This document shows, in pieces, positions 1,457 to 20,604 of a stretch of DNA of 20,697 bases (the stretch's first letter is position 1; every line of letters begins with the position of its first letter). Source of the DNA: a virus. The notes beneath the pieces are model-generated. The model was not told the origin of the DNA and did no database searches. It saw only the letters and a program-made list of their open reading frames with translations. Position numbers and translations under genes: made by a program. Location: positions 1 to 20,697 of IMG/VR virus record IMGVR_UViG_3300005617_000530, one strand, 5' to 3'.

Positions 1457-2558
1457 TGATCTTCCCGCTCAGCTCGACCAATGGTCCCGAATGGGTTGCG
1501 CCATCCGGATCCACGTAGGTAAACGTCACAGGGCCTCCGCTGGACGGCGCCGTGCCCGAGAGAACACCGCAGCGCTTGACCGGCACCCCGATCGTGCTCC
1601 CACTTTCCCAGGCGGGTAGCGCGATAGGCTTGCTTGGATCCCCGTCAGAGAAGGCCACCAACACCTTTGAACCAGGCGTGACAGTCGCTTCAATCCCCGG
1701 AGCAAACCCAAACAACGGCACGCCCGAAAGCGTCGGCAGACGACCCGAATCGGGCGATACATCGACCTTGTTGCCCGACTGCGAGAGCACCCGCGCCAAG
1801 AAAAGCTTGTGATAGTCGGTGCCCCGCGTCTCGTGCCGGATCAGCGCAGACAGCGCAGACCGGACGCGATCCGTGGTGGCGTTGTCCCGCTCGTACCAGA
1901 CGTCGAGTTCCGCGCCTGCCGGTACGTTCTCACCAAGGTGATACTCGACGTACGCAACGCGGTGCCCTTCGAACGTCATGCCCGGTCGAACGGGCGGAAT
2001 CGGTGTGCCGGTGAGGATTGTGTGATCCTCGGACGGATTGGTATGGAGCGTGTCGACTTCGACGGGATCAACCACCACATCCGGGTAAGTATCCGTTCCC
2101 ACCCAGATCGTACCGTCATCGAGCACGCGCCAGTCGGCTCCGGCTACGTCCATCAGGCTGGCCAGTAGGGCACCGCCCAGGCTTCGTGTTCGTACCCAAG
2201 CGGGCACGAAGCGGCTTAGGATCGCAGAGTCAGACCGTGGGGATAAACGTTCGCCAGTTGCGGCCAGAAGGGCGGTTAGAGGAACTCGGAGCGGACTGCT
2301 ACTGTAGTAGACGGGCGTGACTTCTTGATCGAGGCCGCCGGCGCCGCCCACGACCCGTACCGAGGCATAGGCAGCATACACACCGCCATGCTGCACGGTC
2401 CCCGTGAGATCCAGTGCGCCATCCCCGCTGACAATGCGAGCAGTGCCTGTGATCTCCTCTTCGGTGTCGACCATCAGATCCGCGGTCCAGCGGCCAATCC
2501 GCGGGAATGAGATCCGGGCGGAAAGACACGCGATGTCGTTGATCTCGAGGTCGCTCAC
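1446..2558 (-). CDS. Baseplate hub/spike protein with gpV/gp45-like OB-fold domain
   Basis: This 370-residue protein appears to have two parts. Residues 1-235 are a strand-rich domain resembling a hub subunit, with W-R-V-L-D-D-G-T-I-W-V-G-T (143-155). Residues about 250-325 have the signature of the OB domain of tail spike/baseplate assembly proteins (P2 gpV, Mu gp45): L-F-L-A-R-V, a G-K-V-D-V-like strand, then G-S-K-V-L-V-A-F-S-D-G-D-P-S-K-P-I-A-L (296-314). The D-G-D-P-x-x-P segment is very common in this family. The C-terminus (G-A-T-H-S-G-P-L-V-E-L-S-G-K) resembles the tip strands of spikes. It would form the central hub and membrane-piercing end of the contractile tail. The start is GTG at 2558, 6 nt after the stop of the upstream gene, with no strong ribosome-binding site, so coupling is likely. 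Hub-spike fusion is inferred; the OB domain is well supported. Confidence 0.7.
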   Translation of the reverse strand: MSDLEINDIACLSARISFPRIGRWTADLMVDTEEEITGTARIVSGDGALDLTGTVQHGGVYAAYASVRVVGGAGGLDQEVTPVYYSSSPLRVPLTALLAATGERLSPRSDSAILSRFVPAWVRTRSLGGALLASLMDVAGADWRVLDDGTIWVGTDTYPDVVVDPVEVDTLHTNPSEDHTILTGTPIPPVRPGMTFEGHRVAYVEYHLGENVPAGAELDVWYERDNATTDRVRSALSALIRHETRGTDYHKLFLARVLSQSGNKVDVSPDSGRLPTLSGVPLFGFAPGIEATVTPGSKVLVAFSDGDPSKPIALPAWESGSTIGVPVKRCGVLSGTAPSSGGPVTFTYVDPDGATHSGPLVELSGKITSL

Positions 2559-2564
2559 GAAACG

Positions 2565-3272
2565 TTACAGCCCGCTTGCGATCGGTTGAGGAATCCCTGA
2601 AGCGGGAACACCTTCGGTGTCTCGTGGGGTCGCGGGCGCAACCGATCGGTTTGCTTCGACGGGAGCCCGGTTCGTCTGCCCCAGTCGATCGATTCTCGAT
2701 GCCGGAAGCTGAATGACCGTCTGTGTATGTCCCGCAGCATTCCGTTTTGGTGGCGGAATAAACTCGACGCAGTTCATCGTAGCCTTGAACATCCCGAAGG
2801 TATTTTCGATCTCCGGCATTTCGATCGACTTGACGACAACCTCATTGATCTTGGCCCGAACCGTCTCCGGGTGTTTTATCTTGATGGCGTGCTGCGTCGC
2901 CTCGATTGACTTCAGCGCTGCGTACTTTTCGCAGGTAATCGTAAAGGCCGCGAAGTGGTCACGGCGCCATAGATACACCTCGATCTTGACCTCGCTGGGT
3001 TTTTTGCCGCGATCGGTCAAGCGCGCGCCGTGTTTCCCTGCAGCTTTTGGAGCACGGATGTCCCGCACGAGCTTGACCGTGACCTTGACGCGTCCCACAG
3101 GCCAAATCGCTTCGGCATTGTCGAACCAGCCCCAATACAGCTGGTCCCAACGCTGGTAATCGGGCTGGAACTCCCCAAACGCGTGCTCGAAAGGGGTAAG
3201 CGGCGCCGAGGCAGCGGGCTCATCCCCGCTGAGGGCGAGCATCGTATCGATGACGTTGCGTTCAGCAGGCAT
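2565..3272 (-). CDS. Tail protein of unknown function between tape measure and hub
   Basis: This 235-residue protein is not recognised as a named family. It starts with ATG at 3272, overlapping the tape-measure stop by 1 nt (TAATG). Its middle (residues 55-175) alternates charged strands, with K-V-T-V-K-L-V-R-D and I-E-V-Y-L-W-R-R-D-H-F, and ends in C-V-E-F-I-P-P-P. The last 50 residues are low-complexity (Pro, Ala, Arg). The slot between tape measure and hub holds the Mu gp43 DNA-circularisation-like protein or LysM-type hub proteins in other contractile phages, so a baseplate-hub adaptor role is likely by position. No LysM repeat or catalytic motif can be seen. Confidence 0.6.
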   Translation of the reverse strand: MPAERNVIDTMLALSGDEPAASAPLTPFEHAFGEFQPDYQRWDQLYWGWFDNAEAIWPVGRVKVTVKLVRDIRAPKAAGKHGARLTDRGKKPSEVKIEVYLWRRDHFAAFTITCEKYAALKSIEATQHAIKIKHPETVRAKINEVVVKSIEMPEIENTFGMFKATMNCVEFIPPPKRNAAGHTQTVIQLPASRIDRLGQTNRAPVEANRSVAPATPRDTEGVPASGIPQPIASGL

Positions 3273-5056
3273 TAGGTGGCCACGCCCTGGCTGCTAGAGA
3301 TCTCGGTGATCAGGCTTGCAAGGTGTCGTTTGACCTGTCGGCCGATCTCGTCAGCGTCCGGATTGTTTCCATCCACGCTTACGTTGATATCGCCGATGCT
3401 TACCGATCGGCCGCCCACGGTCTTTACGGTGGCGCCGCCAATCTCGCGGTCCATGGTACTCATGATCGCTTGGGCGGAGTTTTCAACCTCGTCCAGACGC
3501 AGGTTCATGCCGCGCGCCAAGCCCTCGATCATGTTCATGCCGAGGCGCGTGAACACCTTGGACGGGCTATGAATCTGCGCGCGATCGCGGAAGCCTTGTT
3601 CAATGCGTCCGGCCATGTCCCGACCGGTCGCGTCGGATTCGCGCAGCAAGCGCTCGTTGTCCATCCGCATCGATTGAAGCGGATGGTCAAACCAGTTGAA
3701 CATGCTTTGGACCCAGCCGCCTTGCTCAACAGGGGCTTGCTGCATTCCAGCGCCGGCGCCGCGCTGCTCCTCGGTCATGGACTCGCCAAGATTGCCGACA
3801 GCCCGACCATGCAGGATATCGTTGGCCTGTGTCAGTCTTTCTACAATTGTGATCACAAGCCCCATGGCGTCAGTGGCGCCGCGAATAAACCCAGGCAGTG
3901 CCTGCGCCGCGCGTGTGATCATTCCCGCGATATCGACCTGGTCCAGTTGATCTAGCAGCGGCTTCAGGGCCGTACGAAATGCACTTCCTTCGACTGTGGC
4001 GCTAGCCAGTGCATCGGTGATTCGATTGACGAACCGCATGACTGGTTGAAACGCGCCGTCGTCGCCCACGTGAGAAAGGAACACGTGCCATTGGGCATCG
4101 AGCCGGTTGATGCTTCCGCCTAGCGTTGTTGCGGCTTGATTCACCGCACGAGTTCCAAGGCGCTCATTGGGGCCGCCGCTGAACCGCTGCTGAATGACCC
4201 GGAGGGCTGCGGAGATGGTTTCCTCGCCCGTGATCTCACGGTTCTTGACCATCTCCATGATGTCGTGGCCCGTGAGCGTGCCGCGGTGACCCGTCTGCGC
4301 CTCGGTCGCTTGATTGCGGGCCATGGCGATCTCAGACGTGACATCGCCGATGCCAACGCCTGCAAAGGACAGAGCCCGAAGGTGACGGGTGTCGACCGTT
4401 CCTTCTTGCTTTAGGATCGCCAGGTCTCGCGAGAGTTGCTCCCAGACCTCGGGTCCCATCACGGTCGACACGTCCGCACCGCCCTGCATAATGGCCATGG
4501 CTTCATTGGTATTGAAGCCCTGGGCGACCATGCGATGGTAGCTGGTCGATGCCTCCTCCAGGCTCACGCCGTACATCGTTGAAAATTGCTCGAGCCGACG
4601 CATCTGGTCTGCGGCTTCGTGCGCGCCCATCTGCGTCGTTAGAAAGTTCATCGTGATCGTGCGAAGGTCGGACATGTGCCCGGCCGCGTGCAAAAATGAC
4701 AAACCGAGCGCAGCTACGCCTGCCGTAGCGCCCGCTGCCCACGTCGCAACGTTGCCCAAGACCGACCGGGCCGTCTCGCCAAAACGCCGGCTTTCATGTA
4801 CCTGGTCTTGCGCCGCCCGGAGCTGCAATCGGTCTACGGAAAGACGCTGGGATGCCATTCGTAGCGCCGCCCGCTGCTGAGTACTAAGACCCGGCATCGC
4901 AAGCGAGGACCTAAGCTTAAGCGCCTGCTTGTCGACCAGTTTCATCGCGCGGTCGACCTGCTTCAGTTCGTCTTCAAGCGACCGCATGGCCCGGGTTGCC
5001 ACGTTGGCAGGGCCGGACATGCGGTCGATGATATCGAGGGCGAACTGAACGCTCAC
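3272..5056 (-). CDS. Tail tape measure protein
   Basis: This 594-residue protein is positioned directly after the frameshifting chaperone gene, the classic tape-measure slot. Residues 24-92 are a Lys/Arg/Leu-rich coiled coil. Residues about 100-125 are a hydrophobic Ala/Gly-rich stretch (V-A-T-W-A-A-G-A-T-A-G-V-A-A-L-G) that could act in membrane passage. The C-terminal region has I-H-S-P-S-K-V-F (495-502), followed by a G-x-x-x-x-x-G-L-A-x-G pattern and a helix ending E-I-G-G, a very common tape-measure signature. At about 0.15 nm per residue, a general rule for this class, the length would set a tail of roughly 85-90 nm. No lysozyme or peptidase domain is apparent. The start is GTG at 5056, 1 nt from the end of the frameshift extension. 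It is short for a tape measure, in line with a short contractile tail. Confidence 0.9.
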   Translation of the reverse strand: MSVQFALDIIDRMSGPANVATRAMRSLEDELKQVDRAMKLVDKQALKLRSSLAMPGLSTQQRAALRMASQRLSVDRLQLRAAQDQVHESRRFGETARSVLGNVATWAAGATAGVAALGLSFLHAAGHMSDLRTITMNFLTTQMGAHEAADQMRRLEQFSTMYGVSLEEASTSYHRMVAQGFNTNEAMAIMQGGADVSTVMGPEVWEQLSRDLAILKQEGTVDTRHLRALSFAGVGIGDVTSEIAMARNQATEAQTGHRGTLTGHDIMEMVKNREITGEETISAALRVIQQRFSGGPNERLGTRAVNQAATTLGGSINRLDAQWHVFLSHVGDDGAFQPVMRFVNRITDALASATVEGSAFRTALKPLLDQLDQVDIAGMITRAAQALPGFIRGATDAMGLVITIVERLTQANDILHGRAVGNLGESMTEEQRGAGAGMQQAPVEQGGWVQSMFNWFDHPLQSMRMDNERLLRESDATGRDMAGRIEQGFRDRAQIHSPSKVFTRLGMNMIEGLARGMNLRLDEVENSAQAIMSTMDREIGGATVKTVGGRSVSIGDINVSVDGNNPDADEIGRQVKRHLASLITEISSSQGVAT

Positions 5057-5057
5057 G

Positions 5058-5213
5058 CTAACCTTTGAGAAAGTGCGATACGCGAAGCATAAAGGTTGCG
5101 ATCAGGTGATAGCCCACTTCGGCTTCCGGGCTGTCTTGCTGCTGGCAGACTGCTTCGACACATTTGGCTGCAACGCTCGTGCTCTTTTCAGCCGAGCGAA
5201 GCAGCGCTAGAGT
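5058..5213 (-). CDS. Frameshift-expressed C-terminal extension of the tail assembly chaperone (T part)
   Basis: This frame has no convincing start of its own. It continues the chaperone reading frame after a -1 slip on A7 at 5219-5213. The first new codon is ACT at 5213-5211, followed by about 50 residues beginning T-L-A-L-L-R-S-A-E-K and ending R-V-S-H-F-L-K-G, with TAG at 5060-5058. The joined product would be 152 residues (101 from the upstream frame plus 51). This mirrors lambda gpG/gpGT and the corresponding pairs in Mu- and P2-like phages, where the extension recruits tail tube subunits to the tape measure. It stops 1 nt before the tape-measure start. An ATG at 5258 in this frame lies inside the chaperone gene and is probably incidental. 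Confidence 0.82.
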   Translation of the reverse strand, partial: TLALLRSAEKSTSVAAKCVEAVCQQQDSPEAEVGYHLIATFMLRVSHFLKG

Positions 5214-5219
5214 TTTTTT
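5174..5219 (-). promoter_or_regulatory. Programmed -1 ribosomal frameshift signal (slippery A7 plus hairpin)
   Basis: On the minus strand the chaperone codons GTA-AAA-AAA-CTC-TAG contain the heptamer A_AAA_AAA (5219-5213), a textbook -1 slippery site, 3 nt before the zero-frame stop. After a 14-nt spacer a hairpin starts at 5198. Its lower stem CGCTCG (5198-5193) pairs with CGAGCG (5179-5174), its upper stem GCT (5192-5190) pairs with AGC (5183-5181), the loop is GAAAAG, and one A (5180) is bulged. Slippery site, frame, spacing and stop codons are all seen directly. The efficiency is unknown. Confidence 0.85.
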
Positions 5220-5515
5220 ACTTCGACCTGCTTGGTGTTCCCGGCAAGCCGAGCGCACTCACTCCCGAAAGTCTCTGCGAGCCCGGGAAGCCGATCGATG
5301 ATGGCGAAGAAGGATTCTTTGTCTGGATCCACCACGCAATCGGTGAGCAGTGTTTCCATCGCGGTGTGCCGGCGTTCGTCATCAAACAGGTAGGTACGGT
5401 ATTTGTTGTATGCGGCCTTGGACGGCTTGCGGACAATCACGGTCTCACCGCATGCGGTCAGTTCGTAGATGTCGCCGTACTTGGCTTTGAGCGCGTCAAT
5501 CGTTGCTTGATCCAT
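5207..5515 (-). CDS. Tail assembly chaperone (G part)
   Basis: This 102-residue protein begins MDQATIDALKAKYGDIYELT and contains a K-P-S-K-A-A-Y-N-K-Y-R strand-helix, matching the small tail assembly chaperones encoded between tail tube and tape measure. The C-terminus E-V-K-K-L sits on the slippery A7 run, so a fraction of ribosomes should make the longer 152-residue form. It is expected to bind the hydrophobic tape-measure protein during tail assembly and is not part of the finished virion. The start is ATG at 5515 with GGAG about 8 nt upstream. No sequence identity with lambda gpG is claimed; the call rests on position, size and the frameshift signal. Confidence 0.85.
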   Translation of the reverse strand: MDQATIDALKAKYGDIYELTACGETVIVRKPSKAAYNKYRTYLFDDERRHTAMETLLTDCVVDPDKESFFAIIDRLPGLAETFGSECARLAGNTKQVEVKKL

Positions 5516-5531: not shown

Positions 5532-5999
5532 CTACAGCCTCATGTTGTCCAGGGGCTCTAAGCCATCAGGTAAGTAGTAGAGAATGTAGAGATCGATCTT
5601 TTCGACCAGGGGATCCGCGCCACTCTTGTGGCCGTTCTCACCGTTCTTGATCTTGCAGCCGACGAGGTTGTCCTCGATTGGACCGAGACCGTCGTTCATG
5701 TCGTACTGAACGTCCATATTGAACAGCTGGCTTAAAAAGCCGCCGCGACGAGCCAGCACCTCTCGCAGCTCTCCGGCCCACCGCTTGTGCAGCGTGATCG
5801 ACCCTTCGGCTCGGTACTGACCGGGGGTCAACCCAAGCACTTGCTGCTGAGTACCCTCGGCTTCGCCAGGCTCGTTCTTAAACGAGTAATTGATTTCTGT
5901 GCATCCGACACCCAGCAAACGAAAGCCAGGGATCGAGATGTTGATCACAGAAAAGTCTGGGTACAGCCCATTGATCAATGGATTGTTGGGAAGAGCCAT
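5532..5999 (-). CDS. Tail tube protein
   Basis: This 155-residue protein lies immediately after the sheath gene and before the chaperone, the standard tube slot of contractile phages. Visible features are the N-terminal P-N-N-P-L-I-N-G, the strand G-F-R-L-L-G-V-G-C-T-E-I-N-Y, the segment G-L-T-P-G-Q-Y-R-A-E-G-S-I-T-L (a common Thr/Gly hairpin in tube proteins), a helix R-W-A-G-E-L-R-E-V-L, and a C-terminal strand pair around V-G-C-K-I-K-N-G and K-I-D-L-Y-I-L-Y-Y-L. Length fits the 140-180 residue range of tube subunits. It should form hexameric rings inside the sheath. Confidence 0.8.
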   Translation of the reverse strand: MALPNNPLINGLYPDFSVINISIPGFRLLGVGCTEINYSFKNEPGEAEGTQQQVLGLTPGQYRAEGSITLHKRWAGELREVLARRGGFLSQLFNMDVQYDMNDGLGPIEDNLVGCKIKNGENGHKSGADPLVEKIDLYILYYLPDGLEPLDNMRL

Positions 6000-6034
6000 C
6001 GACGCATCCTCGCGAGAGCTAGGTTGTTGGGTGA

Positions 6035-7513
6035 TTAGGCGGCTGTGGCGAGACGAGCCGGGTTAACGAACGAGACTGTAGAAACCAGCGCCTTTGCATA
6101 TCCGAGCGGAACCACCGAGACCGAAGAGGTCAGCGTCTCGGATGTGAGAACGGCGTCCGTTCGAGAGAGCGCGAACTTCACGTCACTAACGTGCCCAGGT
6201 CGGAGCAATGCATCATTAAGCAGCTCCTGAATCTCGGACTCGATCATCCGAGCGTCCTGCTCCAAGATCCGGTTGTACTTCAGTCCGGTGGTAGGATCGG
6301 TAACCGGCACCGGATCGACGCGGAAGTTTTCCGATGCCTGATTGACCAGACCGAAGTAGGTGACGTCACACGCGACATCGATCACGCGGCCGTGCTGAAT
6401 GTACCGAAGATCGCTCCCTGCGGCGCTGAAGAGCTTGACGTTCGTGATGTACAGACCCGAGCGTTTGAGCCACGTGCGCATCGTGGAAAAGCGCGCGTCA
6501 TCAAGCCCTGGCGTGATGTTCTCGTCTCGAACAAGCGCAATGTTGTTGCTCGAAACCGCGCCGCTCTTGACGCGCGCGGGATCCTCGTGAATCGGAATGG
6601 CCGCTACGCGTGCGGTTTGCACCCAGGCCACCGAGCGCCGGAACTTGTTCCCCGTGTCCGGCACGGTGAGGTCCTCGACGTCGGCGCTGACTACCATGCG
6701 AGAGTTCTGCTTGATCGCCATGGCGGCAATCAGCGTAGCATCAGAAACACCGGTAGGACCTTCGATGAAGCACCGAACGTGTCGGCGTTGGACCGCGGCG
6801 TTGTTGACGTTCGTCGACATCGCATCCCACCGCGAGGCCAGATCCGTCTGATCGGCTGCAACGCCCACCACATGAGCAAATCCCCAGGTGCGGGGATCGG
6901 CCAACAGGGAGGTCCATGCGCTGTTCAGGTTCGTGGTGGTGCACTTCGGCTCCACCGTGGCCCATGCGAACAAGTCACCGGCTTCGAAGATGATCGGACC
7001 CGCGCCCGCGGTAAAGACGGCCGTAATGCCCGTATTCGGAATCGCATACGTTCCGCCGCTGGGGATCACGATCTCGGGCGAGAAGTGAGCGCCACCATCC
7101 AGCGAATACTTGAACGTCCCGGCGCCGAGCGCACCGGTCTGCACAACAACCAGCTGAACGGAGTAGGAGTCGTAGGGCGTGCTGCCGGTGGTTGCGACCG
7201 TGCCCGTGCTTGTGCTCGTGCGGGTCGGTGTCACCGAGCCTGACGTGGCCGCGGTGCTTGCCGTGGCACGCATGGCCAGCACGGGGGCAGGGGCTACGCC
7301 TTGGGTGAGTTCGCCTAGGGCGAAGACTACTGCGTCAGCAAGTGGCCCGTAGCCAATCGTCGAGCGCACCTGATCGTAGGTGTTGAACTCATAGAGAGTG
7401 CCAACGGTGCCCTGTGACGACGCACCCATCTTGACGTGGCGACCGGCCGTGGACGGGGGTTGAAGGTTCAGGCCGTTTTCCCGGACCGTCAACGTTGCAT
7501 TCGGTGCTGCCAT
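6035..7513 (-). CDS. Tail sheath protein
   Basis: This 492-residue protein makes the phage a contractile-tailed one. The N-terminal region (T-L-Y-E-F-N-T-Y-D-Q-V-R-S-T-I-G-Y-G-P-L-A-D-A) matches the early helix of sheath proteins, where a stretch of nucleotide-like 'fraction' text is followed by a polymerisation arm. Residues about 85-115 are a Thr/Ser-rich linker. A strand-rich insert with Y-S-L-D-G-G-A-H-F-S-P-E and a repeat-like G-D-L-F-A-W follows at about 135-185. The C-terminal half carries R-I-L-E-Q-D-A-R-M-I-E-S-E-I-Q-E and a final strand set ending P-A-R-L-A-T-A-A, typical of the conserved sheath core that joins subunits by strand exchange. The DUF2586-like family of Mu-type phages is a close alternative name. 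It starts at ATG 7513, directly after the terminator-like gene. Confidence 0.87.
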   Translation of the reverse strand: MAAPNATLTVRENGLNLQPPSTAGRHVKMGASSQGTVGTLYEFNTYDQVRSTIGYGPLADAVVFALGELTQGVAPAPVLAMRATASTAATSGSVTPTRTSTSTGTVATTGSTPYDSYSVQLVVVQTGALGAGTFKYSLDGGAHFSPEIVIPSGGTYAIPNTGITAVFTAGAGPIIFEAGDLFAWATVEPKCTTTNLNSAWTSLLADPRTWGFAHVVGVAADQTDLASRWDAMSTNVNNAAVQRRHVRCFIEGPTGVSDATLIAAMAIKQNSRMVVSADVEDLTVPDTGNKFRRSVAWVQTARVAAIPIHEDPARVKSGAVSSNNIALVRDENITPGLDDARFSTMRTWLKRSGLYITNVKLFSAAGSDLRYIQHGRVIDVACDVTYFGLVNQASENFRVDPVPVTDPTTGLKYNRILEQDARMIESEIQELLNDALLRPGHVSDVKFALSRTDAVLTSETLTSSVSVVPLGYAKALVSTVSFVNPARLATAA

Positions 7514-16298: not shown

Positions 16299-16665
16299 CG
16301 TCTTTACCTGTATGCTCGTGCCGCTCTTTGCGGCCCCACTTCTCCGGGTAGCGACGCTCTAAGCGCCACGCGGCGGCTGTCCACTGCTCCGTTGCAGCCT
16401 TGGCGATCAGCGCAACGTCGCGGATCTCGGACGCTGCGATCGCTTCGTGCACCGCGTCATGGAAGTCTCGGTACGGAGCTTCCTCGTCACTCGTGTCATT
16501 CGCTTGAATGGCCCGCGCGCCACGCCGTAGCCAGTCGTAATACCGATCCTTGGCAATGCCTGCGTAGGCCGCTGCGGTATCGACGTAGTTGCCGGCTCGA
16601 AGGACGCTACAGATCTTCTCAGAGAGTTCCGGGGTTAGTTTGGTCGGTTTGGTGACCCGAGCCAT
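16210..16665 (-). CDS. terS: Terminase small subunit
   Basis: This 151-residue protein (from ATG at 16665) contains an N-terminal helix-turn-helix: L-S-E-K-I-C-S-V-L-R-A-G-N-Y, then T-A-A-A-Y-A-G-I and D-R-Y-Y-D-W-L-R-R-G-A. The A-A-A-x-A-G-I and Y-x-W-L-x-x-G pattern is typical of small terminase subunits that bind the packaging site. The central helix E-I-R-D-V-A-L-I-A-K-A would be the oligomerisation helix. The region after E-K-W-G-R-K-E-R is acidic. The TTG at 16686 is a less likely start. The 3' end overlaps the large subunit by 89 nt from GTG 16298, or 56 nt from ATG 16265. Confidence 0.85.
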   Translation of the reverse strand: MARVTKPTKLTPELSEKICSVLRAGNYVDTAAAYAGIAKDRYYDWLRRGARAIQANDTSDEEAPYRDFHDAVHEAIAASEIRDVALIAKAATEQWTAAAWRLERRYPEKWGRKERHEHTGKDGGAIAIDLRWADEKTGEDSEQTEPSPETD

Positions 16666-17401
16666 GGGATCCGTCTTTGATTGCAACCCAGGCGGCGAAG
16701 TTCATCCAACGCCAGACGCATTCAACGTGCGTAAAGCCTGCGCCTTGGAGAATCTGGTGGTTCCATGCTGCGCGCATCGGAACCAAGACCCCTTCAAGAG
16801 AGGCGCGTTTGCGCTCGATCGCTTCTGGGGAATAGCCCTGGGACTGCTTGTATGCGTGGTATTCCGCGATCAGGGTGTCATCGATCCGAACGGTGGAGCC
16901 GATGACCTTCTCTGTAAACAGAAAGGCGCCGCCCGGCACCGTAGAACGAAAGACATCAGAGACGATACGAGCTCGGTATTCAACCGGCACGAACTGCAAA
17001 GTAAGAATCGCAAGCGTGACACTTGCACGAACGTCCGGGTAGGTATCACGCAAGTCATGCTGCCGGATGCTGACATCTGGCCGATCGGCAAACTGCTCGC
17101 GGGCATAGGCGAGCATCGGTTCAGAGACTTCCGTCCCGACGAACGTGCATCGGCCTTTGAGCGCGTCGGCAATCGGGGCAAGCCCACTACCACGGCTACA
17201 ACCAAGATCCACGATCTCAGTGCCGTCTTGTGCGTACCGAAGGGTTAACCGCGTGACGACGTCTCGGAGCGCTTCGTATTGCGGGATCGAGCGTGCAAGC
17301 ATGTCATCGAAACAGCTTGCAACGGCATGGTCAAACGACCACCGACCGCTAGGCTGATGCTCGAGACTGTCGTCCGAAGGTTCGTCGGTACTCGGCTGCA
17401 T
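16619..17401 (-). CDS. cmoA: CmoA-like carboxy-SAM (Cx-SAM) synthase
   Basis: From ATG at 17401 this protein has 260 residues and aligns along its whole length with E. coli CmoA, which makes carboxy-S-adenosyl-L-methionine from SAM and prephenate. Shared segments, by my recall of E. coli CmoA, are W-S-F-D-H-A-V-A near 21-28, R-S-I-P-Q-Y (37-42), the SAM motif D-L-G-C-S (65-69), T-L-Q-F (134-137), V-P-G-G-A (155-159) followed by E-K, G-Y-S-x-x-x-I-x-x-K-R (189-199) and N-F-A-A-W-V-A-I-K. Arg199 matches CmoA Arg199, which binds the Cx-SAM carboxylate. Differences are CmoA D89/N90 to E91/V92 and N132 to I132. The end overlaps the small terminase and the start lies inside the asparagine-synthetase-like gene. 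No CmoB partner is present. The upstream TTG at 17470 is a less likely start. Family assignment is strong; product not proven. Confidence 0.85.
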   Translation of the reverse strand: MQPSTDEPSDDSLEHQPSGRWSFDHAVASCFDDMLARSIPQYEALRDVVTRLTLRYAQDGTEIVDLGCSRGSGLAPIADALKGRCTFVGTEVSEPMLAYAREQFADRPDVSIRQHDLRDTYPDVRASVTLAILTLQFVPVEYRARIVSDVFRSTVPGGAFLFTEKVIGSTVRIDDTLIAEYHAYKQSQGYSPEAIERKRASLEGVLVPMRAAWNHQILQGAGFTHVECVWRWMNFAAWVAIKDGSHGSGHQTDQTNPGTL

Positions 17402-18758
17402 AGAAACTCTGGGGGCTTGCAAGCCTGGACTCAATGACCGCTTTGAGGCCCATGCCGTCCTGGAAGGCAACCTTAGGGCGCCGCGTCACGATAGCGGGAA
17501 GTAGTCCCGCCATCGCATCCTGAATGACCGCCTTGGGGCGCGCCTTGCCATCCTGAACAACCCGCTGGGGGAGCGAAAGCGCGAACTCAACCAAGGGCGG
17601 GTGAAGAAACGGCAGGCGGCACTCTACGGAGTGGGCCATAAAGACTTTGTTGCACCGGGGGAAGTTCTTGCGGGCTTGGGTCAGAAACAGGTTCTTGCGG
17701 TAGGTGTGCCAGTCCTGCGTTTTGAGCGCGTGGTAGGCAAAGCCGTAGCTGCCCCAGAGTTCATCCGAACCTTCCCCGCTAAACGTCACCTTGAAGCCGT
17801 CGCTATGCATGGCCTGGGCAAGCCGTAGACAAGCCCAGCCGATCTCGACCTGTGCCTTGTAGGGCTGCTCGATGACCCGCACGACCTTGGCCAGGTCATC
17901 GGCTGATGGCGGCGGGACGCGAATTTCGCGTAACTCGATCCGAAGCGCAGCAGCAACCTCTCGAGCCGCCCGGAGGTCTTTGGACTTGCGATCCAGAACG
18001 GCCGTGTAGGCTACAAGCCCGGGACGCTCTTGGGCTAGGAAGTAGGCCACCGCGGCCGAATCAATCCCGCCGGATAGTAGGGTACAGACCGGGACGTCGC
18101 TAATCGCTCGCTCTCTAGACCCTCGTTCAATCAAGCCACGTAGGGAGGCCCGCGCGGCTTCGGGTGTCATCGGAACGGGACGGGCAGGGGGATCGTACCA
18201 ACGAGCCTTCCGAATGCCCTTGGCAGAGACTTCTAGGCGCTCACCCGGTCCTACATCCGTGATCGCTGCGGGCTGGACTCGTAGGGCAAGCAGTGCCTTG
18301 AGTTCGGACGCAAACACAAACGGCTTGGTGGGCGCATAGTGCAGCGGGACTTCACCAAAACGATCGCGTGCTAGGTGCAGCGTCTTGCCGTCATTCGTCC
18401 AGGCAAGGGCAAACATCCCATTGAGCCTGGCCAACGCAGCAGGGCCCCACGTCTGGAGCGCGGCGGCTACGACTTCGGTGTCACCGGTCGTAGTGAAGGT
18501 TTTGCCAAGCGTCTGGAGTTGGGCTCGGACGGCTTTGTAATTCCAGATCTCTCCGTTGAATGCGAGAGCAACCTTGCCGTAGTGAAACGGCTGATTGCTG
18601 CGAGGATCGAGGTCTAGGATGGCCAGGCGCGTATGGCCTAGTACGACGTCACCGGCCTGGAAGATGGATTGTTGATCCGGGCCACGGTGAATCAGTGCGG
18701 CGATTCCACGTTCGATGGTAGTCGGCTGGATCCATAGACCCCCGACTAGGCCGCACAT
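17349..18758 (-). CDS. Asparagine-synthetase-like glutamine-dependent amidotransferase
   Basis: This 469-residue protein has the N-terminal nucleophile Cys2 (M-C-G-L-V-G-G), then H-R-G-P-D (24-28), H-T-R-L-A-I-L-D (42-49), F-N-G-E-I-W-N-Y (67-74) and G-D-T-E-V (92-96), the glutaminase pocket of class II amidotransferases. The synthetase half has the PP-loop S-G-G-I-D-S (229-234), S-G-E-G-S-D-E (327-333) and the Lys of R-R-P-K-V-A-F-Q-D-G (426-435), which aligns with catalytic K449 of E. coli AsnB. The E. coli AsnB aspartate segment T-x-R-A-S-T-P (by recall) is not there; its place reads A-Q-V-E-I-G-W-A (302-309). So ATP-activated carboxylate amidation is expected, but on another substrate. 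It overlaps the C5-methyltransferase stop by 13 nt and the CmoA-like start by 53 nt. Proposed substrate: the carboxymethyl group on DNA cytosine. Confidence 0.85.
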   Translation of the reverse strand: MCGLVGGLWIQPTTIERGIAALIHRGPDQQSIFQAGDVVLGHTRLAILDLDPRSNQPFHYGKVALAFNGEIWNYKAVRAQLQTLGKTFTTTGDTEVVAAALQTWGPAALARLNGMFALAWTNDGKTLHLARDRFGEVPLHYAPTKPFVFASELKALLALRVQPAAITDVGPGERLEVSAKGIRKARWYDPPARPVPMTPEAARASLRGLIERGSRERAISDVPVCTLLSGGIDSAAVAYFLAQERPGLVAYTAVLDRKSKDLRAAREVAAALRIELREIRVPPPSADDLAKVVRVIEQPYKAQVEIGWACLRLAQAMHSDGFKVTFSGEGSDELWGSYGFAYHALKTQDWHTYRKNLFLTQARKNFPRCNKVFMAHSVECRLPFLHPPLVEFALSLPQRVVQDGKARPKAVIQDAMAGLLPAIVTRRPKVAFQDGMGLKAVIESRLASPQSFYAAEYRRTFGRQSRASA

Positions 18759-20053
18759 GAGAGCTTGCGAAGAATCTGGTCACGAACCGTGGAAGCGATT
18801 GCCGCCATCATGACCGGGGGAACGGAACGACCACAGCGCTCCCATTGCTGAGCGTAGGTGCCTTTGAGCACAAAGTCATCCGGGAATGAACAGATCCGCT
18901 TGAGTTCCGCGATTGAGAACTTACGCCGCTCCGTCGGGTGCGTGACTGATGCAACGGACGCATCCCCGCCACGCTGAGTGATTGTCGGGCACGGCGCGTT
19001 CGGATCCGGGCGCACGAGCTGAAAGTATTTCTCGCTCTGCTCGCCTTGCTTGAGCTTGTCCCATTCGGCACCGACCGCATAGCGCGAGATATCTGCCTCA
19101 GGCTCGATCACGAGAGAGATCTCAGAATTCGTGTGACGCCGGCCGTGCGTAAGCACGGTGGGAGCAGGCTCGTCGAGTGATCGCGTTTTCTTGTGCGTTG
19201 CGACGCTCACGGCCCGGCTCTGAGCCTGCACATGAAAACGCATATTTGAGCCACCACCCGCGGAACGGATCGTACACATGGGCTCGTTCGCAACATCGAA
19301 AACACGGGTACCCTCGAAACCCCTAGCGTCGTGTGTCACGGCAGTAATCCACGGCAACGCATCGCGTACGCTGTATCGATAGGGCAGCGGGCTTGGGTGT
19401 GCGGGCGCTAGACCGAGATCATTGCGCACGCCGACAAAGATCAATCGCTGTCGTGCCTGCGGAACACCGAGCCACTGGGCATCAAGAAGCTGGGCGGCTA
19501 CGCGATACCCGCATGCCTTGAGCGCTGCCAGAATCTCCTTGAAGTAGCCCTTGGCCGTGCCCTTCACGAGACCCGAGACGTTCTCGGCTACGAAGGTTTT
19601 CGGCTGAAGACCTTTGAGTAGGCGCGCGTACTCGAAGAACAGATCATCAACGCGTTGGGCCGTATCCGAGTAGGCCTTGACCTTGCCCCAGGCTTCTTCA
19701 CGCTTACCGGCCGTCGAGAAGGACGCACACGGCGGGGAGCCATCGAGCAAGTCAATCTCACCGACCTTGAGCTTGGTAGCCTTGAGAATGTCCTCGGGCT
19801 GGATCTTTCGGATATCCCGCGGATCAAGAATCGTGCTTTCGAAGTTCGCTTGGTAGGTCTCACGCGCTGCGGGGATAAACTCATTCGCCCAGACCACCTT
19901 GAAGCCGGCCATGCGGTAGCCAAGGCAAGACCCGCCGCCACCAGAGAACGTGCTTACGACCTTGAAACCGTTCCACGGCAGGGCCCGGATCTCGGCCATG
20001 CTCGGCACGCGGTAAGGCGGCTTCGCTGGTGCCTGCTTACGCTTTACGACCAT
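18746..20053 (-). CDS. DNA cytosine-C5 methyltransferase with Arg in motif X (predicted carboxymethyltransferase)
   Basis: This 435-residue protein has the motifs of C5-cytosine methyltransferases in order: motif I S-T-F-S-G-G-G-G (34-41), a motif II acidic residue in A-N-E-F (56-59), motif IV S-P-P-C-A-S-F-S (106-113, Cys109 the nucleophile), motif VI E-N-V (157-159), motif VIII Q-A-R-Q-R-L-I-F (199-206), then a target-recognition stretch and F-P-D-D-F near the end. Motif X reads C-G-R-S-V-P-P (407-413): Arg409 (codon CGT at 18829-18827) replaces the near-invariant Asn of G-N-S/A-V-P-P. Asn-to-Lys at this position in M.MpeI (N374K, by recall) lets the enzyme take Cx-SAM. With a CmoA-like gene two places downstream, carboxymethylation of cytosine is likely. 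Recognition sequence unknown. ATG at 20053 overlaps the ParB-like stop by 10 nt. Confidence 0.93.
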   Translation of the reverse strand: MVVKRKQAPAKPPYRVPSMAEIRALPWNGFKVVSTFSGGGGSCLGYRMAGFKVVWANEFIPAARETYQANFESTILDPRDIRKIQPEDILKATKLKVGEIDLLDGSPPCASFSTAGKREEAWGKVKAYSDTAQRVDDLFFEYARLLKGLQPKTFVAENVSGLVKGTAKGYFKEILAALKACGYRVAAQLLDAQWLGVPQARQRLIFVGVRNDLGLAPAHPSPLPYRYSVRDALPWITAVTHDARGFEGTRVFDVANEPMCTIRSAGGGSNMRFHVQAQSRAVSVATHKKTRSLDEPAPTVLTHGRRHTNSEISLVIEPEADISRYAVGAEWDKLKQGEQSEKYFQLVRPDPNAPCPTITQRGGDASVASVTHPTERRKFSIAELKRICSFPDDFVLKGTYAQQWERCGRSVPPVMMAAIASTVRDQILRKLSCAA

Positions 20054-20604
20054 TCATACCCGCACTTGGGGCACTTGTGCTCGGTCTCGATCGACTCATC
20101 GAAGGACTTGAACCCTTCCGGCGCGATCGCTTCTGCTGTCGTGTTGAGCAACGCATCAATCTCGGTATCGTGCCAACCGGCTACGAGCGCGACGTCCGTG
20201 CCCTGCTGTCGTAGGTCACCGAGTAGCGCAATGAGCTGCTCGTTGTCCCAAGAGCCAAGCTCGTTCAAGCGATTGTCCGCAAGCGCGAGCAGGTGCGCAT
20301 CGGCTGGATCCAGGTCCAGGAACCGTACCGGCACGCGAGTCATCCCGAGCATCTCGGCAGCCTTGAGCCGCGTGTGCCCCGCGATCACTTCGCCGTCTTC
20401 ACGACGAGCAAGGATCGGCGCAGCAAACCCGAAGCGCTTGATGCTCTCGACTACCCGCTGAATATGCGTGTCATCGTTGCGCCGCGGGTTGCGATCCCAC
20501 GGCTTGAGCGCGGTAATCTCCACCCATTCCGCCGCAAGCTCTTTTTTAGAGGGTACGGAATCTCTGGATTCCTTCGAAGCCTTGTCGATTTTGCTAGATT
20601 TCAC
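20044..20604 (-). CDS. ParB/Srx-fold nuclease-domain protein with C-terminal zinc-ribbon-like tail
   Basis: This 186-residue protein has the ParB N-terminal domain. After a basic N-terminus (residues 1-25), K-P-W-D-R-N-P-R-R-N-D (34-44) opens the fold, then I-x-R-V-V-E-S-I-K-R-F-G-F (48-60), the conserved G-E-V-I-A-G-H-T-R-L (71-80) and A-L-A-D-N-R-L-N-E-L (107-116). The end is H-K-C-P-K-C-G-Y-E-W-S (176-186): one Cys pair and a His, so at most half a zinc site. Phage ParB/Srx-fold proteins are often encoded beside or fused to DNA methylases. Here it leads the hypermodification operon, and its stop overlaps the methyltransferase start by 10 nt. Whether it is an NTPase switch, nuclease or DNA-binding partner is not visible. 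The start is GTG at 20604 with no clear ribosome-binding site. Beyond it, 20605-20697 holds a weak imperfect hairpin and no gene I can recognise. Confidence 0.82.
   Translation of the reverse strand: MKSSKIDKASKESRDSVPSKKELAAEWVEITALKPWDRNPRRNDDTHIQRVVESIKRFGFAAPILARREDGEVIAGHTRLKAAEMLGMTRVPVRFLDLDPADAHLLALADNRLNELGSWDNEQLIALLGDLRQQGTDVALVAGWHDTEIDALLNTTAEAIAPEGFKSFDESIETEHKCPKCGYEWS

Follow-up and report, generated by a model that had tools for sequence, protein, structure and literature searches.

A probable glutamine-hydrolysing CmoY in a phage operon encoding homologues of the DNA carboxymethylation enzymes CmoX and CmoA

The closest described system is the CmoX-CmoY-CmoA pathway, in which 5cxmC (carboxymethylcytosine) is formed on DNA and then amidated (Yang et al., December 2025; PMC12783734). 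According to that paper, CmoA of Synechococcus phage S-B43 makes Cx-SAM (carboxy-SAM), CmoX produces 5cxmC in DNA, and CmoY couples glycine to the modified base. A second large ligase cluster, bearing a glutamine-hydrolysing domain, is predicted in the same text to use ammonia as the amine, and the attempt reported there to obtain an enzyme of this cluster yielded insoluble protein. The representative of that cluster, A0A7T0Q3R0, is likely to be gp124 of Streptomyces phage TurkishDelight, which is 54% identical to the ligase described here. Judged by sequence comparison and predicted structure, it is very probable that this ligase is a glutamine-hydrolysing CmoY, which would amidate 5cxmC in DNA to 5-carbamoylmethylcytosine.

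The ligase gene lies in a 20,697-nucleotide stretch of viral DNA (the window), an IMG/VR virus record that includes no host genome, the minus strand of which encodes, in order, a ParB-like protein, a C5-methyltransferase homologue (CmoX), the AsnB-like ligase (CmoY) and a CmoA-like protein, followed by terminase and tailed-phage structural genes. The first four genes overlap at their junctions, although the start of CmoA is uncertain, and the same order is found in TurkishDelight. The ParB-like protein heading the operon (20044..20604; PF02195, phrog_620) has a counterpart in the equivalent place in both TurkishDelight and Pseudomonas phage PaBG. CmoX (18746..20053, 435 aa; PF00145) overlaps the ligase gene by 13 nt, and is a homologue of the DNA cytosine C5-carboxymethyltransferase, with the S-B43 enzyme SpCmoX (8YF3) as its best match in the PDB (E 1.4e-71), far ahead of other solved structures. 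Alignment locates both the SPPC catalytic motif (19727..19738) and R409 within GRSVPP (18827..18829), which corresponds to SpCmoX R350, the contact for the Cx-SAM carboxylate, and to N304 of HhaI; the ordinary C5-methyltransferase of Aphanizomenon phage CL131 instead has GNCVPP, with Asn at the position of this Arg. CL131 and Erwinia phage SNUABM_5 were considered as sources of further ligase types, and set aside because no CmoA or ligase is annotated near their C5-methyltransferases. The longest reading frame of the CmoA homologue, a predicted Cx-SAM synthase, runs from a TTG at 17470 (16619..17470), with the ATG at 17401 the likelier start. It scores 155.2 bits against TIGR00740, under the curated cut-off of 193.3, but the proven SpCmoA scores just 115.6 bits, and therefore the cut-off excludes phage CmoA proteins. 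The ligase gene is thus flanked by both a CmoX, with its SPPC and Arg350 equivalent, and a CmoA, the neighbourhood expected of a glutamine-type CmoY.

Elsewhere in the window, a Gp49-like (DUF891) gene followed by a helix-turn-helix (HTH) gene, on the plus strand opposite to the phage operon (274-959), may encode a toxin-antitoxin pair of the HigBA type. A DUF2586 protein, encoded on the minus strand (6035-7513), occupies the tail-sheath place, and a tape-measure-like protein is encoded at 3272-5056, suggesting a contractile-tailed phage. A search for RNA families and tRNAs across the window found none.

The ligase itself is read from an ATG at 18758 on the minus strand, and its 469 aa fill the interval 17349..18758 that the earlier note had correctly assigned to it. 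Pfam recognises GATase_6/7 and Asn_synthase domains, indicative of a class-II glutaminase joined to an AMP-forming synthetase. Against the NCBIfam equivalog TIGR01536 it scores 293.5 bits, above the cut-off of 267.1, whereas against the E. coli-type model PRK09431 it reaches 240.6 against 499. The structure prediction suggested in the earlier note was made with AlphaFold2 (pLDDT 93.1, pTM 0.91), and its closest fold is E. coli AsnB (1ct9; Z 45.1 over 449 residues, 2.3 A), followed by TsnB9 and then human ASNS; beta-lactam and carbapenam synthetases have this fold in common with it. The catalytic apparatus that the same note had described as intact is all found by alignment with E. coli AsnB (in Cys1 numbering). 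Cys2, the glutaminase nucleophile (18753..18755), aligns with C1 of AsnB; the PP-loop SGGIDS at residues 229-234 (18057..18074) aligns with SGGLDS, its S, G, G, D and S being invariant in phage representatives; SGEGSDE at residues 327-333 (17760..17780) aligns with AsnB 346-352; and K429 (17472..17474) aligns with the catalytic Lys, K449. Hence the protein has the two parts expected of a glutamine-type CmoY: an N-terminal glutaminase domain with its Cys nucleophile, and an AMP-forming synthetase with its PP-loop and catalytic Lys.

It is in the aspartate site that the ligase departs from AsnB. In E. coli AsnB, a Thr-Thr pair, an Arg and Cys523 are reported to have roles in binding aspartate and ATP (PMC5775275, citing Boehlein). 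A gapless alignment sets V320-T-T-I-R324-A-S-T-P of AsnB against K301-A-Q-V-E305-I-G-W-A of the window ligase, within the segment K301-A-Q-V-E305-I-G-W-A-C310 (17829..17858). The earlier note was right that AQVEIGWA stands where E. coli AsnB has the TxRASTP-bearing segment (TTIRASTP), but the ligase has not lost this stretch, which is of equal length and differs in its residues. In place of the Thr-Thr-x-Arg and C-terminal Cys523 of aspartate-specific AsnB proteins are A302, Q303 and E305, and a protein that ends near AsnB residue 513, such that the Cys523 region is absent. Furthermore, the position of AsnB D384 is taken by an invariant Asn, N365 (17664..17666). This position corresponds by alignment to human ASNS Asp-400, the human number being paired by hand, which has been modelled in the pocket for the amino group of an inhibitor (PMC6748925). 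The same study modelled human Glu-364, Asp-367 and Glu-368 as binding the amino group of aspartyl-AMP, and the equivalent acidic cluster is retained in the window ligase as E329, D332 and E333.

Yet TxRASTP is also absent from the 39 cellular relatives examined that are not of the E. coli AsnB type, which is most of the cellular family members examined, and its loss was therefore rejected as sole proof of a substrate other than aspartate. The loss of TxRASTP is accordingly weaker evidence against aspartate than the earlier note presented. Instead, it is the residues found in its place that are informative. Across 16 phage representatives, each less than 85% identical to the others, K301, Q303, E305, I306, C310, N365 and F366 are invariant, and an equivalent of K301 is present in none of 45 cellular homologues, arguing that this segment did not arise by chance. 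The archaeal AsnB-like proteins of two Thaumarchaeota (L103, L111) have HLQVDV at the aspartate segment, and look intermediate between AsnB and the phage motif.

Part of this segment also appears in the glycine-type ligases. Alignment of profiles of the two types with hhalign (E 2.1e-14) pairs K301 and E305 with K98 and E102 of SpCmoY, and the ligase of phage PaBG shows the equivalent pattern SKTDFEC. Hence both ligase types have a K-x-[QHD]-x-E motif at the aspartate-binding place of AsnB, which is likely, by this comparison of sequences, to hold 5cxmC, and would be a mark of ligases recognising this base. The motif may already be in the supplementary figures of PMC12783734.

In a tree built with the motif columns left out, the 16 phage proteins form one clade (support 100/99), which is the sister of E. 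coli-type AsnB (95/87) rather than lying inside it, although the root is arbitrary. The nesting within true AsnB that would have counted against the proposal of the earlier note is hence not seen for the E. coli type. The net charge of the synthetase domain (+13 in the window ligase, a mean of +3.2 in phages, -12 in the E. coli type and -2.8 in other cellular proteins) was considered as a sign of DNA binding; it is suggestive, but the ranges overlap and no weight was placed on it. A scan of genome contigs for a close cellular or prophage copy of the window ligase gave only relatives of 25-35% identity.

The genomic context of the family is nearly uniform. CmoX, CmoA or both are present in the examined stretch of 75 of 76 IMG/VR relatives, the remaining gaps lying at contig ends, and the Arg that binds the Cx-SAM carboxylate is kept in all 68 neighbouring CmoX proteins with a readable C-terminus. 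Marine relatives such as L007, L053 and L071 have a CmoA and a CmoX sharing approximately 93-95% identity with their proven S-B43 counterparts, while the gene between them is of the window ligase family rather than the glycine ligase family. In L053, the DNA matches that of S-B43 at 89.5% over nucleotides 1-1274, through cmoA, and at 85.7% over 2087-3747, from cmoX onward (the proteins being 93% identical for CmoA and 94% for CmoX), and between these blocks only the ligase gene differs, an 812 bp gene in S-B43 being replaced by one of approximately 1,397 bp. Across loci with homologues of both SpCmoX and SpCmoA at 75% identity or more, 36 encode a glutamine-type ligase and 22 a glycine-type ligase, and none of them both. 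Because the swapped genes lie between a CmoA and a CmoX nearly identical to the proven enzymes, these sequences are most simply read as indicating that the two kinds of ligase have one DNA base as their common substrate. The exchange was observed in marine relatives, the ligases of which are approximately 49% identical to that of the window, and not in the window phage itself.

Two AsnB-like proteins have other neighbours. On a 115-kb contig (L002, IMGVR_UViG_3300005323_000039), a ligase 57% identical to that of the window, with the full motif, is encoded at 5989-7413 beside a radical-SAM-like gene; protein and family searches of the contig found no C5-methyltransferase or CmoA, and the approximately 51 kb of it that were read offered no explanation. 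This contig may be from an archaeal virus, given its PCNA-like clamp gene, with either the CmoX and CmoA partners on a missing part or the carboxylate coming from another source. In Achromobacter phage Motura (L211), a distant AsnB-like protein (4038-5318) without the K-x-Q-x-E motif neighbours QueC, QueE, GTP cyclohydrolase and tRNA-guanine transglycosylase genes, suggesting that it was recruited independently into a pathway for 7-deazaguanine in DNA.

It is unlikely, but the best surviving alternative, that the ligase joins 5cxmC in DNA to an amino acid, polyamine or other amine, with a glutaminase domain that, as in beta-lactam synthetase, is a relic or has a regulatory role. The proven homologue SpCmoY does take glycine (PMC12783734), and both beta-lactam and carbapenam synthetases have the same fold. 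However, the glutamine site is retained across the phage family: besides Cys2, the window ligase has R44, N68, G69, E70 and D93 where AsnB has R49, N74, G75, E76 and D98, and every phage representative with coverage there has the equivalents of C1, R49, N74, G75 and D98, as well as the interface Glu (E398). The glycine-type ligases, by contrast, are devoid of this entire domain. It is because of this retention that ammonia is the predicted amine. Additionally, the glutamine type does not conserve the Arg of the CRxKT motif, which is invariant in glycine-type ligases and which might, speculatively, bind the carboxylate of glycine. L006, L018, L020, L027 and marine relatives have NGT rather than NGE in the glutaminase motif, AsnB E76 being replaced by Thr. 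This is the clade that fills the glycine-ligase slot, for which the Thr casts some doubt on glutamine handling, while the window ligase has Glu.

An alternative that is somewhat less probable still is that a cofactor or nucleotide is amidated rather than DNA, the substrate being either a 5-carboxymethyl nucleotide in free form or Cx-SAM, which would yield a carbamoylmethyl-SAM for CmoX to use. The operon would be explained in this way too, and no DNA-bound structure is known for the family. Against this, CmoX retains the Arg binding the carboxylate of Cx-SAM, the CmoX proteins encoded beside glutamine-type ligases reach 95% identity with SpCmoX, an enzyme whose product is acid-bearing DNA, and DNA is also the substrate of the ligase that is replaced in the swap (PMC12783734). 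Least probable of all is a true asparagine synthetase acting as a phage auxiliary metabolic gene, as despite the TIGR01536 score, the fold similarity to E. coli AsnB and the retained acidic cluster, T321, T322, R324, D384 and the segment with C523 are altered or absent, the linkage to CmoX and CmoA is near-invariant, and the gene swaps with an amide-type DNA ligase.

The glutamine-hydrolysing CmoY reading is therefore supported computationally: by the exchange of ligases seen in relatives, by the order of the genes, and by the motifs, fold and phylogeny of the protein. The points counting against it are the TIGR01536 score, the kept acidic cluster, the L002 locus without partners, the marine change at E76, the distance between the window and the swap-bearing relatives, and the insolubility of the published cluster enzyme. 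According to this reading, the phage CmoA would convert SAM and prephenate to carboxy-SAM, and CmoX would move the carboxymethyl group onto C5 of cytosine in phage DNA. The synthetase domain of the ligase would then use ATP to adenylate the 5cxmC carboxylate, with K301, Q303, E305 and N365, at the aspartate-site positions of AsnB, proposed to hold the base. Glutamine would be cleaved at Cys2 in the N-terminal domain, and the ammonia channelled across to attack the adenylate, releasing 5-carbamoylmethylcytosine DNA. Phage DNA bearing this neutral amide would probably escape restriction; we infer this benefit, as we do all the catalytic steps, the ammonia product and the roles in the pocket.

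The proposal in the earlier note that a carboxymethyl group on DNA, made by the neighbouring gene, is amidated consequently gains comparative support from the CmoX and CmoA neighbours and the ligase swap. It coincides with the prediction in PMC12783734, and is hence not new. Rather, this work ties a protein annotated as an asparagine synthase to DNA hypermodification, supporting a predicted branch of a recently published pathway, with the swap between near-identical cmoA and cmoX pairs representing a controlled natural experiment in which one handle would receive a different amine. If correct, 5-carbamoylmethylcytosine would join the known DNA bases, and these proteins would constitute a family of DNA carboxylate ligases with exchangeable amines.

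Compared with known systems, the window ligase has the two-domain build, glutaminase, PP-loop, SGEGSDE and catalytic Lys of E. coli AsnB and human ASNS, but differs in its aspartate site and C-terminal tail. It resembles SpCmoY of S-B43 in its operon slot, AMP-forming synthetase fold and K-x-[QHD]-x-E motif, but SpCmoY is a protein of 271 aa without a glutaminase domain that uses glycine as the amine, and its CRxKT and SGxGADG motifs differ. The peptidoglycan-amidating AsnB of Listeria (PMC8554201) and the hydroxyamidotransferase TsnB9 (7ylz) are likewise members of the AsnB family that do not use aspartate as their substrate, and hence offer, by analogy, a precedent for misleading annotation, although they act on the cell wall or a small molecule rather than DNA. 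The nearest likeness is to the glutamine-hydrolysing CmoY cluster itself (PMC12783734), which combines an AMP-forming ligase with a glutaminase domain beside CmoX and CmoA; the window ligase appears to be a further member of this kind already predicted in print, with stronger comparative support.
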